Shown here: positions 7,745-62,720 of the stretch, in pieces
How positions within the stretch are numbered: position 1 is the stretch's first letter
Layout of the letters: each line of letters opens with the position of its first letter
DNA from: Periplaneta americana
Lineage: Eukaryota > Arthropoda > Insecta > Blattodea > Blattidae
Assembly (NCBI RefSeq): GCF_040183065.1
Contig: NC_091121.1
Location: forward strand, 62,776,287-62,840,286
Direction of reading: 5' to 3'
Length of the DNA: 64,000 nucleotides
Program-made: the position numbers and the translations under genes
Notes under the pieces: generated by a model
What the model was told of the DNA's origin: nothing
Database searches by the model: none
What the model saw: the letters and a program-made list of their open reading frames with translations, nothing else

Positions 7745-9190
7745 TACTAACTCCACAATTGAGTTGTTGATGTTGACGAGAAATGACTGGTAAATTCTTT
7801 ATTAATAAAGGACTACAATTTGTTCCAAATTCTATACACCAGAAGTAAAGGTGCTATGTCACAAATATTGAATTTTACATGAGAGCTAAATAAATGTGTT
7901 CATCAGCTCAGTACCATATAGCACATAGTACTCTTTCCAACTGTGTTAGGTCTACGCCTTGGAATAGTGCTTTACACTACTGAAAAGAACACGAAAAATA
8001 AAATAAAAATATCTAACGTGTCAATTTCGTAAAAAAATTGGACATAGTGCCCATTAACTCTACACAAACATGCTGTAAATTTACCTTATAGATTAATGAC
8101 TTCATTGTCCCTTCCGCTGAAAACCACATTTAAAAATTTTTCCATCCATTATTTGGTCAGGATCGAAGCCATATATTCATTATTATGGATGCCTTTGCAC
8201 AACACTCTTAATGGTTACCAAGCGAAAACGCAGGTCTCCCCTCTCGTCCTGTCCAGAATTTTCCAGCCTTTCTCCAGATATAACTGTGTGAACGTGAAAA
8301 TGCAGTGTCTAATAATTATGAAGGTGCAACGCGTACAGTATGATCCACGGAAACGTCATAGTTGAATCAATGAATGCAGACTTCCCATGCTTAATAAAGG
8401 ATGAGAAAATCGTTTTCTGAGAAGCTTGTGAGGAAAAAGGTTAGTGCATTTTGATTGCATGAATTTTTTAACAGTTACATAATATTACACACTCAAAACG
8501 TTTGTATGTGAACATTTAAAAATGTGCCCGGTTAATTGTGGACATGCCAAAAATTAGGTTCTAAGAAATTTATAGACACTACATGCATATGCTAATTCAT
8601 AAACACAGTTAATTGATATTTCGTTGAATTATAATATTTTGCATACCCATTTCGTGGCTCTTTTTTCGGCTAGCTTGAATGAACATTAAACAAGAATGTT
8701 TAAGAGCCATTTAATCATTGATAAAGCTTAATTCACTTGTTTAAAGCGTTAATTTAGTCACCTAACAGTTTTTATAATCTTAAAGTACGCGGTCTAATAA
8801 TAGAACATGACTTGTCCGGACGTCTTGGTTTGACTAGAGTTTTCGAGGGCCGAACCCGGGACTCATCCTTGTACTTGCATTTAGACTTAAGTTACGCATT
8901 AATTATATAAAATTTATAACATATTTGCACCAAAAAAATTCCATAAAAATGAACCTCTTAAAGATGGCAGAATGTATGATAGGGTTACAAGATCATGATT
9001 TAAAATCTAAACCTTGAAGAATATGAGGAACGAGAATAATGAGAAGATGATTATAATGATAATATGATGATAACGAGGTTAACGACGATCATTTTCCTTT
9101 GGTAAACATATTTCAAAAATGTATTCTACTATAATGCAAATGAGCAACTATATAATTTTTAAATATTGCTAAATATAAAAACGTGTCAGA
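7745..9190. other. Long AT-rich interval without recognised genes
   Basis: Nothing confidently identified in about 1.4 kb. An 89-codon ORF at 8096-8365 has no recognisable domain or repeat and is probably chance. A GCCGAACCCGGG-like B-box fragment near 8847 may mark a dead SINE. Confidence 0.35.
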
Positions 9191-20640: not shown

Positions 20641-21370
20641 GACAAAGTATATGATTATGTCTCGTGACGAGAATATTGTACGAAATGGAAATATAAAAAT
20701 TGGAAATTTATCCTTTGAAGAGGTGGAGAAGTTCAAATATCTGGGAGCAACAGTAACAAATATAAATGATACTCGGGAGGAAATTAAACACAGAATAAAT
20801 ATGGGAAATGCCTGTTATTATTCGGTTGAGAAGCTTTTATCATCCAGTCTGCTGTCGAAAAATCTGAAAGTTAGAATTTATAAAACAGTTATATTACCGG
20901 CTGTTCTGTATGGTTGTGAAACTTGGACTCTCACTTTGAGAGAGGAACATAGGTCAAGTGTGTTTGAGAATAAGGTGCTTAGGAAAATATTTGGGGCTAA
21001 GAGGGATGAACTTACAGGAGAACGGAGAAAGTTACACAACACAGAACTGCACGCATTGTATTCTTCACCTAACATAATTAGGAACATTAAATCCAGACGT
21101 TTGAGATGGGCAGGGCATGTAGCACGTATGGGCGAATCCAGAAATGCATATAGAGTGTTAGTTGGGAGGCCGGAGGGAAAAAGACCTTTAGGGAGGCCGA
21201 GACGTAGATGGGAAGATAATATTAAAATGGATTTGAGGGAGGTGGGATATGATGATAGAGAATGGATTAATCTTGCTCAGGATAGGGAACAATGGCGGGC
21301 TTATGTGAGAGCGGCAATGAACCTCCGGGTTCCTTAAAAGCCAGTAAGTAACTAAGTAAGTAAGTAAGTA
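20640..21370 (+). mobile_element. 5'-truncated LINE (copy 2), best-preserved ORF, inside a minisatellite
   Basis: Carries an uninterrupted 228-codon frame (20651-21337), the longest of this family in the window. It represents the end of a non-LTR retrotransposon reverse transcriptase protein: FEEVEKFKYLGATVTNINDT, LPAVLYGCETWTL, LRWAGHVARMGESRN, EGKRPLGRPRRRWEDNIKMD, then a stop 3 codons after NLRVP. The catalytic FADD box and endonuclease lie upstream and are missing. It ends in (GTAA)n. It interrupts the ~70-bp array, so it post-dates array formation. Clade called RTE-like from remembered motifs. Confidence 0.88.
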
Positions 21371-24785: not shown

Positions 24786-25117
24786 GCCTGAGGTGGCAGA
24801 GTGGCAGACCTTCAGTCTGTCACGCAGGCAGTCCGAGTTCGAATCCCGGTCAGGTATGGGGTTTTTCATTAAAAATCCATAGTGGACTTGCGGTGAAAAT
24901 GGTCGCACTTCGGTATTTTTCGGGGCTCTCTCGTTTCTCCATATTACGCATCTACGTCATTCTGTCAACATTTCTTCATTCCGAAGTCATTCCATAGCAT
25001 TTCCCGAACGCCGGCGGCTGGTGCATGGAGGATCTGGCCTAGGGACGAGTGGGATTGTCGGCACGGAACAAGGGTACGCAGCGACCTTAGTGTAGTCTGC
25101 CAGTGTGGGTTGGGAAT
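24786..25117 (+). mobile_element. SINE family C, near full-length
   Basis: tRNA-like head CCTGAGGTGGCAGAGTGGC with B box GAGTTCGAATCCC, then TTTTTCATTAAAAATCC, GGTATTTTTCGGGGCTCTC, and the body with CGGCGGCTGGTGCATGGAGG and GGGACGAGTGGGATTG. It runs directly into the tandem array at 25118, whose first unit is the SINE's own 3' terminal segment (compare 46000-46080 in another copy). Confidence 0.85.
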
Positions 25118-25695
25118 GCGCCTGCGTTGAATATTAGCGCAATAAATCTTGAAGGGACGTAGCGACTCCTCTCGGAATTCCATTCCATTGCGCCTGAGTT
25201 GAAGATTAGCGCAATAAATCTTGAAAGGTAGTACTGTCCCCTCCCGAAATTCCATTCCATTGCGTCTGGATTGAAGGTTAACGCAAAAAATCTTGAAAGG
25301 TCGTAGTGCCCTCTCCCGAAATTCCATTCCATTGCGCGCCTGGGTTGAAGGTTAGCGCAAAAAATCTTGAAAAGTCGTAGTGCCCCTTCCCGAAATTGCA
25401 TTCCATTGCGCCTGGGTTGAAGGTTAGCGCAATAAATCTTCAAAGGTAGTAGTGTCCCCTCCCGAAATTCCATTCCATTGCGCCTGGATTGAAGGTTAGC
25501 GCATAAAATCTTGAAAAGTCGTAGTGCCCCCTCCCGAAATTCCATTCCATTGCGCCTGGGTTGAAGGTTAGCGCAAAAAATCTTGAAAGGTCGTAGTGCT
25601 CCCTCCCGAAATTCCATTCCAATGCGCCTGGGTTGAAGTTTAACGCAATAAATCTTGAAAGGTCGTAGTGCCCCTTCCCGAAATTCCATTCCATT
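25118..25695. repeat. 72-bp minisatellite made of the SINE 3' tail, 8 units
   Basis: Unit starts (GCGCCTG or variant) lie at 25118, 25190, 25262, 25334, 25408, 25480, 25552 and 25624. The period is 72 bases except one unit with a 2-base insertion. Each unit reads GCGCCTGGGTTGAAGGTTAG, GCAATAAATCTTGAAAGG, and CCTCCCGAAATTCCATTCC. Because 72 is divisible by three, the minus strand carries open frames of up to 200 codons with 24-residue repeats (MEFREGAL...), which are not genes. Confidence 0.93.
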
Positions 25696-39689: not shown

Positions 39690-41275
39690 CTATCCAAATA
39701 CTTTCACACCCGTGATGAGCAAACACAAAAACTGGAAATAGCACAGGACAAAACAGCACTTATGCCAATGTATATTCGAAAAAGGACAAAGTACAATACC
39801 CACCCGACAGTCATTAAGTGGGGTATAACCGTTGTTTCAAAAATGAAATACTTGGGAGTTATGCTCGACTGCAAGATGGATTGGTTTCCTCACGCTCAGT
39901 TTCTAGAGAATAAAATACTAAGGCTTCGAAATAACTTAATCCGATGTTATAAAGCATCCTGGAGCATATCGTACTACCACCTTCTCACCATGTATAACCA
40001 CGCCATCTTTCCAGTCGTCTCGTATGCTGCGGAGGCTTGGTGCCAGACAATATCCAGAAGAGCCTCCATCAAACTAACGCAGATCCAAAGATCATTCCTA
40101 ACGTTTACGATCAAATCCTATAAAACTGTGTCCAACCTTGCAATGCAAGGAATAGCAGGGATTATGCCGATAGAGCAAGCCCTGCATCTGAATAAAGATA
40201 TGAAGGCGGTTAGAAGAGGCTTACCCACCAATGCAGTTCTGCCCAAACTCAAGAAGACTGAACTACCAACAAGATACGGAGGAATCCATCCGAAAGACAA
40301 CAGCGTAACAATAGGCAACAGTGGTACAGTCATCCCAGCCAATATACAGATCTTCACGGACGGGTCAAAAACTGAAAAACACGTCGGAGCAGGCATGGTC
40401 GCAGAAGAAAATTCAATGGAGATCTACACGAGGCACGTAGACTGGACAACGAATGCTCGGTATTCCAAGCAGAACTTGTAGGCATCCAAATGGCAGTACA
40501 CTGGATTCAACAGCAAAGTAAAGATAAAATCTCACATGCAATAATACACTAGACTCGCAAGCAGCACTCTTTGCCATCGCAAACAAAAGAACTACATAAC
40601 CAATAGCAGTCTACATTAGAAAGAAAATTATCACGCTCAAGAAGTAAATTCATATCTCATTAAACTGGATCAGAGGACATACAGGAATCAGAGGTAATGA
40701 ACGAGCCGACTACCTAGCAAAGATAGCTGCCAGTTATAAAAGTACTATAGCCTACAACTCCATCCCTATGTCTCGAGCTAAGCAACTTTTGGAAAATTAC
40801 TACACAAACATTTGGAATGCAACTTACATCAACTCCGAGGTAGCACATCACACCAAACAGTTCATCCCCTCTATCCACCACAGACTCTCTCTATCCCTAT
40901 GGCCTAATTACATTATCACCCAAATTCCTGACCAACCACGGTTGTTTCCGTACATATCTTCACAGGATCAACAAGGCACCATCTCCCCTATATAACTGCC
41001 CAGAAAAGTCACCTCAGACAGCAAGACACCTTCTGATAGAATGCTCCTTGTGCTCAAGAGACCGGCCTCGTGTTCTAACAACCCAAACGCTGCCCCAGAT
41101 ACTGAAGTTCCGCATCAACACTGTCGCCGTCACAAACTTCATCAGCAACATCTTCCGCACACTTCAAGAATAGACTCTAAACAATCAAATTGTAGTCACC
41201 ACTAATGTAAATATCTTGTGATATGCCTATGGCAAAACACAGGTTGTAAAATAGCACGTAAATAAAAAAAAAATG
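39690..41275 (+). pseudogene. 5'-truncated LINE with RNase H domain, I/R1-like
   Basis: The longest frame (39762-40481, 239 codons) covers the reverse transcriptase thumb region (KMKYLGVMLDCKMDW, AEAWCQTISRR). It is followed by an RNase H domain starting at FTDGSKTEKHVGAGM (40352). Frameshifts near 40455 and 40545 interrupt it, but the remaining RNase H landmarks can be read: AELVGIQMAVHWI, LDSQAALFAIANK, WIRGHTGIRGNERADYLAK. A C-x-H-C-x2-C type tail (HLLIECSLCSRD) follows and the protein stops at 41173. The 3' UTR ends in an A run (41266-41275). Endonuclease and RT core are missing. Inactive. Confidence 0.8.
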
Positions 41276-60826: not shown

Positions 60827-61654
60827 ATGCCGCGCGGGTTCCTGGTCAAGCGACACTACGGCGACGGCGGCGAGGACGGCCTGGCGGAGCGCCTGGGGTT
60901 CGAGCCCCAGTACCACCTGTACTCCACCACCCCGCCGCCCCTGGATCTGTCCCTCAAGTCCGCGACGCCCATCACGCCTCCGTCTACACCTTCGCCGTCG
61001 TCCCCCGTGAGGAAGAGGCCCACCGCCCCCGAGTCGCCCGTTCCCGTGACGCCGAAGACGAAGGCCGCCCCCAAGAAGAGCAAGGCCGTACGCAGACTCA
61101 ACTTCGACGAGGACAAGACCTCGCCCGTGTCGGGCACCATCATCCGCGAGCTGGGCGCGGACGAGGCGCCGCTGGTCGTGCGGAAGGGCGACATCGACCC
61201 CGCCTTCAACGTGGTGGAGGTGACGGAGGAGGCCAAGGCGGAGCTGGCCAAGATCGAGAACCGGATCGGCGCCTACATCTGCCGCCTGTGCCGCGAGCTG
61301 TACGAGGACGCCTTCAGCCTGGCGCAGCACCGCTGCTCGCGCATCGTGCACGTGGAGTACCGCTGCCCCGAGTGCGACAAGGTGTTCAACTGCCCCGCCA
61401 ACCTGGCCAGCCACCGGCGCTGGCACAAGCCGCGGCCCCACAGCAAGGAGCGGGAGGACGTGGGCCTGGACCTCGTGAAGCGCCCCGACCCGGCCGCCCC
61501 CGCGGAGGGGGAGGAGCCGCAGTTCCCGTGCCCGGCCTGCCAGAAGCGGTTCAGGCGCCAGGCGTACCTGAGGAAGCACTTGGCGAGCCACCAGCAGGAC
61601 GCCGCCACCATGCTGCACACCGCGCACCAGGTCGTGGTGCCGGCCGCCAACTGA
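60827..61654 (+). CDS. nerfin-1: Nerfin-1 / INSM1-type SNAG zinc-finger transcription factor, single exon, 275 aa
   Basis: Transcription factor of the insulinoma-associated/Nerfin family. Relatives act in the nucleus during early neuronal differentiation and axon guidance. Residues 1-9 are MPRGFLVKR, the SNAG repressor box that recruits LSD1/CoREST-type corepressors in relatives; it must be N-terminal, which fixes the ATG at 60827 although the frame is open further upstream. PLDLS (38-42) fits the CtBP-binding consensus. A Pro/Ser/Thr/Lys-rich linker (44-90) follows. Zinc finger 1 is C2HC (C152, C155, H168, C170), finger 2 is C2H2 (C180, C183, H196, H200), finger 3 is C2H2 (C235, C238, H251, H255). 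The spacing and the CPANLASHRRWHKPRP phrase are diagnostic. No intron is needed, and the codons are strongly G/C-ending. It ends 20 residues after finger 3, shorter than the proteins I recall from flies and vertebrates. Stop TGA 61652-61654. Confidence 0.93.
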   Translation: MPRGFLVKRHYGDGGEDGLAERLGFEPQYHLYSTTPPPLDLSLKSATPITPPSTPSPSSPVRKRPTAPESPVPVTPKTKAAPKKSKAVRRLNFDEDKTSPVSGTIIRELGADEAPLVVRKGDIDPAFNVVEVTEEAKAELAKIENRIGAYICRLCRELYEDAFSLAQHRCSRIVHVEYRCPECDKVFNCPANLASHRRWHKPRPHSKEREDVGLDLVKRPDPAAPAEGEEPQFPCPACQKRFRRQAYLRKHLASHQQDAATMLHTAHQVVVPAAN

Positions 61655-62720
61655 CACCCGCTGCTCATGGCCACCCCGTGGCCACCGGCACACCCCCCGC
61701 CGCCCCGGCCCGTGCCACTGCCGCCGCCGCCCTTCTGGCGACTCGGACTGCTCTAAGAGGTGAGAGTCATCGCATCGCAACCCTCGTCACGTCATCGAGC
61801 CTAGTCAAGCCCATTCTAGTCACACTTCTAGTCAAATCCACTGAGACTAGTCATGCTCCTAGTCAAATCCAACAAGTCTAGTCAGAGTCTAGTCAAGTTC
61901 AACAAGTCTAGTCAAAGTCTAGTCAAGTTCAACAAGTCTAGTCAGACTGTAGTCAAGTCCAACAAGTCTAGTCAGACTTCTAGTCAAAACTGTTAAACAT
62001 AGGCCTAGGCCTGTTCAAAAGTCAATAGCAACCATTGGAGTGCAATTATATCCAAATAAATGTTCTGGAATTACTCATCTACACTATTTTGTCGTTCAGA
62101 TTCATAAAAAGAAACTGACGATGAGTTGAAGTCTCGAATTGATGTTCAAGTAACATCATGGTTATCGTAGTTAAACAAAAATTTGAACTAAAGATTGTTT
62201 TCAGATGCTGAAGAATTTAGTTTAATTAGAACACTAACAGCTCTTCAATTTCTGTGAAATTAAAACTCTTAAATTGAAAACTGGAAATGGATTTGAATAT
62301 ATGTTTTAACGGCTGTTCGATCTTATGTTCGTGTCTAAATTAGTGCAATTACGCTAATAATCTGACATGTAGGCTCAATCTAGTGACAATGAGAAATTCG
62401 TTGTCAATTGTTCGTTCCCATACTCGTCCACACGTACTCGGTATGTTAACGCCATAATATGTGAAGTTGTCTGGACTACTAAATATTACATAGACCTACC
62501 TACTAAAAAAAAAGTCGAATCTCGTATAGATTAAAGACGACTAAGACTAGTCAAAATGTTAACACAAATCGAACTTTCTCTAGTCTAGACAAGCAACCAC
62601 AAAACAATAAAGGATCTTGTCTAGTCTAGGATGAACATGCTGTGTAATGTAGAACTAGTGAAGTAGTCTAGCGCGTGGAGCCACGAACGAGGTTCTAGTC
62701 AATTTGCTAGTCTGTTGTAC
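61655..62720 (+). promoter_or_regulatory. nerfin-1 3' UTR with dense miR-279/996/286 seed-match array
   Basis: TCTAGTCA, the exact 8-mer target of microRNAs starting UGACUAGA (miR-279, miR-996, miR-286), occurs at 61815, 61827, 61877, 61888, 61907, 61918, 61937, 61967, 61979 and 62694. CTAGTCA (7-mer A1) occurs at 61801, 61847, 61859 and 62547. TCTAGTC (7-mer m8) occurs at 62579 and 62620, and a 6-mer CTAGTC at 62707. Twelve sites fall in 61801-61986 as doublets with a ~30-base period. Possible polyadenylation signals AATAAA lie at 62055-62060 and 62606-62611; use of the first would keep the main array but drop the later sites. The microRNA link is known from Drosophila; its operation here is inference. 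Confidence 0.75.
61800..61990 (+). repeat. ~30-bp tandem repeat bearing paired CTAGTC sites
   Basis: Units of 30-31 bases such as AAGTCTAGTCAAAGTCTAGTC followed by AAGTTCAAC repeat about six times and diverge toward the left. First-site positions are 61815, 61846, 61877, 61907, 61937 and 61967. Second-site positions are 61827, 61858, 61888, 61918, 61948 (mutated to TGTAGTCA) and 61979. Confidence 0.9.

Follow-up and report, generated by a model that had tools for sequence, protein, structure and literature searches.

The window, that is, the whole stretch of 64,000 nucleotides of Periplaneta americana DNA that was analysed, holds at its end a GC-rich gene whose uninterrupted frame encodes 275 amino acids and closes with a TGA at 61652-61654 (Table 1). 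The product matches Pfam zf-C2H2 (E = 1.2e-10) and combines C2H2 fingers with sequence blocks common to relatives named insulinoma-associated protein 1, as found in the nerfin/INSM1/EGL-46 family. Among the matches listed, the closest named one is a protein of the termite Coptotermes formosanus (86% identity), and many of the relatives carry the name insulinoma-associated protein 1-like (best 120 of 1720 proteins, E ≤ 0.001). Together with an alignment of 13 sequences (the gene product and 12 relatives), these matches bear out the first-pass annotation, which had called the gene a nerfin homologue. Judged by its protein sequence, the gene belongs to the nerfin/INSM1 type and is putatively nerfin-1 rather than a nerfin-2-type paralogue.

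The C-terminal motif QVV(V/G)PAAN ends at the same position in four of the 12 aligned relatives, namely P0002 (Coptotermes) and P0003-P0005. The orthopteran relatives from Anabrus and Gryllus (2/12) have longer tails followed by an AAN terminus, and the C-terminus differs in six of the 12, including a Diploptera record with a seemingly frame-shifted end. Owing to the shared C-terminal end, the stop at 61652 is well supported, and since P0002-P0005 terminate at the same position, we rejected a protein-coding role of the downstream repeat array as unlikely. Past the TGA, the frame stays open for 33 codons (61655-61756; HPLLMATPWPP...FWRLGLL) until a TAA. This proline-rich stretch is a possible case of stop-codon read-through.

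Downstream of the stop codon, the coding strand carries 17 copies of a short word, the seed match of miR-279/286/996. Ten are full 8-mers (TCTAGTCA), nine of which start at 61815, 61827, 61877, 61888, 61907, 61918, 61937, 61967, and 61979. Four are CTAGTCA without the 5' T, three of them in the 8-base stretches starting at 61800, 61846, and 61858; two are TCTAGTC without the 3' A, and one is a bare CTAGTC. The tenth 8-mer and the other remaining sites are given in Table 1. Our re-count on the sequence reproduces exactly the numbers (10, 4, 2, and 1) and positions of the first-pass annotation, whose reading of the word as a miR-279/286/996 seed match is likewise upheld: the word fits, and fly papers pair nerfin-1 with these microRNAs.

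Table 1. Features of the nerfin/INSM1-type gene and its downstream region (window coordinates).
Feature	Position	Strand	Basis
nerfin/INSM1-type C2H2 zinc-finger CDS, 275 aa	60827..61654	+	One ORF, Pfam, relatives
Leading half unit, one 7-mer CCTAGTCA	61800..61814	+	Unit alignment and site inventory
30-bp minisatellite, two seed sites per unit (nine 8-mers and two 7-mers)	61815..61988	+	TRF
miR-92-type 7-mer GTGCAAT	62040..62046	+	Word panel
Candidate proximal poly(A) signal AATAAA, downstream of the array	62055..62060	+	Pattern only
Second miR-92-type 7-mer GTGCAAT	62343..62349	+	Word panel
Dispersed 7-mer ACTAGTCA	62546..62553	+	Site inventory
Dispersed 7-mer-m8 TCTAGTCT	62579..62586	+	Site inventory
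Candidate distal poly(A) signal AATAAA	62606..62611	+	Pattern only
Dispersed 7-mer-m8 TCTAGTCT	62620..62627	+	Site inventory
Dispersed 8-mer TCTAGTCA	62694..62701	+	Site inventory
Dispersed 6-mer GCTAGTCT	62706..62713	+	Site inventory

All 17 sites lie on the strand of the gene. Within 61655-62720, CTAGTC occurs 17 times versus two occurrences of GACTAG, both inside the palindrome GACTAGTC; the remainder of the window holds five and seven copies, respectively. This orientation bears on the alternative that the repeated word is the site of a DNA- or RNA-binding protein instead of a microRNA. The word is short, and a protein could bind it. However, an orientation-free DNA element is argued against by 17 of 17 copies on one strand, with opposite-strand copies confined to the two palindromes, even though tandem copying alone would orient the 12 sites of the array and its half unit. 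Moreover, the block kept in the repeat coincides with the seed match of the very microRNA family known for this gene, which makes a protein site highly improbable. The weights that we give to this and the other alternatives are rough, and the alternatives are not mutually exclusive.

The sites fall into two groups: 12 lie in a 30-bp repeat and the half unit that precedes it (61800-61988), and five are dispersed farther downstream (62546-62713). The repeat consists of head-to-tail copies (TRF period 30, 5.7 copies, 82% matches). From the second site onward, the distance between neighbouring half-unit starts alternates between 11-12 and 19 nt. CTAGTCA is kept in 12 of 13 half-units, the thirteenth being a degenerate copy (TGTAGTCA at 61948), and both halves of the unit share (T)CTAGTCA. 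As 11 sites belong to the TRF-called array and one to the half unit, the raw site count is largely the product of duplication, and independent origins number far fewer than 17. Thus, of the extreme concentration put forward in the first-pass annotation, the excess over chance stands, as the shuffles below confirm, but most of the sites come from a repeat that the annotation did not mention.

Tandem repetition is widespread in this window. Other tandem arrays reach 17 copies of TAATGCTA and 14 of ATTCCATT within 910 bases, a simple repeat reaches 29 copies of TATTATTA over the same length, and larger arrays are built of unrelated 48, 70, and 72-bp units. A high word count alone is therefore unremarkable in this genome. 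The array of 48-bp units (1904-2941, ~21 copies) has open frames in more than one register; the single one that was scanned (1944-2537) has no Pfam match. The array of 72-bp units (25117-25695, eight copies) carries a 200-aa open frame, also with no Pfam match. Two further long ORFs (20651-21337 and 39762-40481) resemble retroelement protein fragments by eye, and neither matches Pfam at E ≤ 0.001.

These arrays lend weight to the view that the sites are a neutral minisatellite, in which a 30-bp stretch containing the seed word by chance was multiplied through replication slippage or unequal exchange, raising site number without added function. Tandem arrays in the window amplify arbitrary words, and larger ones contain more copies of a single 8-mer than the nerfin-1 array does. 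We compared the seed core with the rest of the unit. Over six aligned units, only one of 84 core cells differs from the consensus versus 25 of the 102 remaining cells (Fisher 1e-6), and 13 of 14 core columns are invariant versus two of 17 others. When columns were permuted with any register allowed, equal retention of the core was reached in 5 of 20,000 permutations. The tail of the last unit has diverged and may not belong to the array. If that unit is dropped, the permutation yields 399/20,000 (~0.02; Fisher 2e-4), and with four units 486/20,000 (~0.02; Fisher 1.5e-3). The retention of the seed core is moderate evidence for function, because the values weaken without the last unit and because the array was noticed on account of this very word.

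The second line of evidence lies in the word counts, for which 2,000 dinucleotide shuffles served as the null model. In 61655-62720, the shuffles contain on average 0.06 copies of TCTAGTCA and 0.58 of CTAGTC, and none of them reaches the observed 10 and 17. Outside the array (61996-62720), the excess persists: CTAGTC occurs five times (0.21 expected, 0/2,000 shuffles), TCTAGTC three times (0.09, 0/2,000), CTAGTCA twice (0.07, 4/2,000), and TCTAGTCA once (0.02, 42/2,000). Among the 14 hexamers with at least three copies in this part, CTAGTC has the highest ratio of observed to expected copies. Further, six one-mismatch relatives of CTAGTCA occur there versus ~0.9 expected at equal base frequencies; three of the six are CTAGTCT sites already among the 17. 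Neutral repetition accounts poorly for five dispersed sites beyond the array that all lie on the gene's strand, for a word common to both halves of the unit, and for the fact that nerfin-1 is independently reported as a miR-279 target. Hence, we consider it unlikely.

In a panel of 28 insect microRNA seed words, three occur in 61655-62720: miR-279 with 12 copies, miR-92 with two, and miR-34 with one; the other 25 have none. The second of these, GTGCAAT of the miR-92 type, has an expectation of 0.07 copies, and one of 500 shuffles reaches its count of two, as one of 28 words tried. miR-92a/b rank among the microRNAs most enriched in fly neuroblasts (PMC12064045).

In Drosophila, the link between this microRNA family and nerfin-1 is known. 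PicTar ranks nerfin-1 first among single-microRNA targets; the gene has two conserved miR-286/279 anchors and, in every fly, numerous scattered sites (PMC1183519). MovingTargets reports three sites for miR-279 and three for miR-286 (PMC1180435). In fly cells, a nerfin-1 3' UTR reporter has a half-life of 31 min with miR-279, and its decay is slower with POP2 and NOT1 mutants that are inactive or do not bind, indicating dependence on CCR4-NOT (PMC3510486). Loss of mir-279/996 strongly derepresses nerfin-1 in heads (PMC4456407). The level of miR-279/996 is high in glia, reduced in neuroblasts, and close to the detection limit in neurons, and an excess of miR-279 causes neuroblast amplification (PMC12064045). 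Outside flies, miR-279 is predicted to target nerfin-1 of Tribolium (PMC6961396). In the cockroach Blattella germanica, miR-279-3p is well represented (PMC3462697, PMC5637074), with 33,581 and 43,314 reads as printed for its libraries (PMC3462697). Among the papers listed, none treats nerfin-1 in cockroaches or termites. Pattern scans for the DNA of relatives in viral and genome contig collections gave 48 and 80 matches, none of which was confirmed.

Consequently, the link itself and its many-site habit were already known from PicTar, MovingTargets, and the Tribolium prediction, and the first-pass annotation's view of the many-site design as new does not hold. The fly gene resembles the cockroach gene in family, seed, and abundance of sites, many of which do not align between species (PMC1183519, PMC4456407, PMC3510486). 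In contrast to the cockroach gene with its 30-bp repeat, the portions of these papers that we cite mention no tandem site array. Tribolium has the same gene and, by prediction, the same microRNA outside flies (PMC6961396). Among more distant systems, ONECUT2 likewise encodes a transcription factor and carries up to 26 miR-9 sites, but in a vertebrate 3' UTR of 14,575 nt, and thus at far lower density, and its mRNA is resilient to miR-9 (PMC10356556). CTG-repeat 3' UTRs also create many overlapping sites, for miR-15b and similar microRNAs, yet through a 3-nt repeat, as in SNF1LK with six seed sites in 21 bp (PMC2374997). ciRS-7/CDR1as presents dense sites for one microRNA (73 predicted for miR-7), but is a circular RNA that acts as a sponge (PMC6108476). 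The earlier statement that no 3' UTR with so many sites for one microRNA family has been described can therefore be kept for insects at most. Among the papers listed, none describes sites amplified as a two-site 30-bp tandem unit, and a case may have been missed.

No Rfam family reaches the gathering score in the window, and thus no microRNA gene was found within it. As a candidate miR-279 gene, TGACTAGA at 8831 was rejected: its two flank folds have ~-16 kcal/mol each and give no clean hairpin. The target sites themselves are not specially accessible, which we rule out from the predicted fold. The median probability of eight unpaired bases is 0.077 in the array, 0.011 at the distal sites, and 0.080 over all positions, that is, unremarkable within the array but low at the distal sites, a point that speaks for the protein-site alternative. 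Extended pairing to known family members is uneven, with energies of -9.2 to -19.0 kcal/mol for fly miR-279, miR-996, and miR-286. Both the openness and the pairing count against the microRNA reading.

The spacing of the sites sets how many complexes could act together. MicroRNA sites are reported to act best when their starts lie 16-30 nt apart; overlapping sites may hinder each other, although many overlapping sites together are associated with more repression (PMC2374997). With starts only 11-12 nt apart, the paired sites within a unit probably compete. The computed number of complexes that fit on the array and on the whole region is 7 and 11 at a minimum spacing of 15-18 nt, 6 and 10 at 20-30 nt, and 5 and 8 at 35 nt.

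These numbers also weigh on the idea that the nerfin-1 mRNA is a natural sponge which titrates miR-279, raised in the first-pass annotation as a possible microRNA-titrating role. Each transcript would carry many sites, as ciRS-7 does. However, close sites are probably mutually exclusive, which leaves room for 10-11 complexes on each mRNA at a spacing of 15-30 nt; miR-279-3p is well represented in Blattella libraries (PMC3462697), and a transcription-factor mRNA would hardly equal it in number. In addition, the fly reporter mRNA is short-lived with miR-279 (PMC3510486). Titration by an mRNA of this kind is most improbable, and we do not retain the idea.

How many sites an mRNA would include depends on where it ends. 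Apart from the two AATAAA candidates in Table 1, ATTAAA occurs at 62259 and 62530 (pattern only), and neither AATAAA nor ATTAAA is found beyond 62606 up to 64000. On the basis of these patterns, an mRNA ending after the candidate signal at 62055 could keep 12 sites and lose the five distal ones, and one ending 10-30 nt past 62606 would include 14 or 15. Only a longer form, using a different signal, would take in the sites at 62694 and 62706.

Taken together, the 3' UTR of the nerfin-1 homologue probably contains a miR-279 response element that was amplified in tandem and would strongly repress nerfin-1 outside neurons. For its origin, we infer that dispersed miR-279-family sites came first and that a 30-bp unit with two sites was then duplicated locally in tandem. 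If the region is transcribed and the microRNA present in P. americana, as we would expect, miR-279-family Argonaute complexes would bind the array and recruit GW182 and CCR4-NOT. Deadenylation and mRNA decay would follow in microRNA-expressing cells (glia and neuroblasts in the fly), so that Nerfin-1 would be confined to neurons. Some 6-7 complexes could occupy the array at once, and 10-11 all 17 sites, if each needs 15-30 nt. Extra sites would raise the odds that several complexes lie 19 or 30 nt apart, within the reported optimum of 16-30 nt. A switch-like response to miR-279 is possible. More tentatively, and with the odds against it, the array may serve as an evolvable dose control, in which minisatellite copy number sets how tightly miR-279 shuts off nerfin-1 and varies between individuals or species, with distal sites added via alternative poly(A).

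The locus is a real, dense variant of the known miR-279-nerfin-1 link; the original observation is confirmed, and its interpretation partly supported. A target already known to be unusually strong in flies appears to owe the majority of its sites, in a different insect, to a two-site unit that was duplicated in tandem, with cores kept and spacers drifting. If confirmed, this would be a rapid way to reach very strong repression and would provide a natural series for the effects of site number and spacing on repression.
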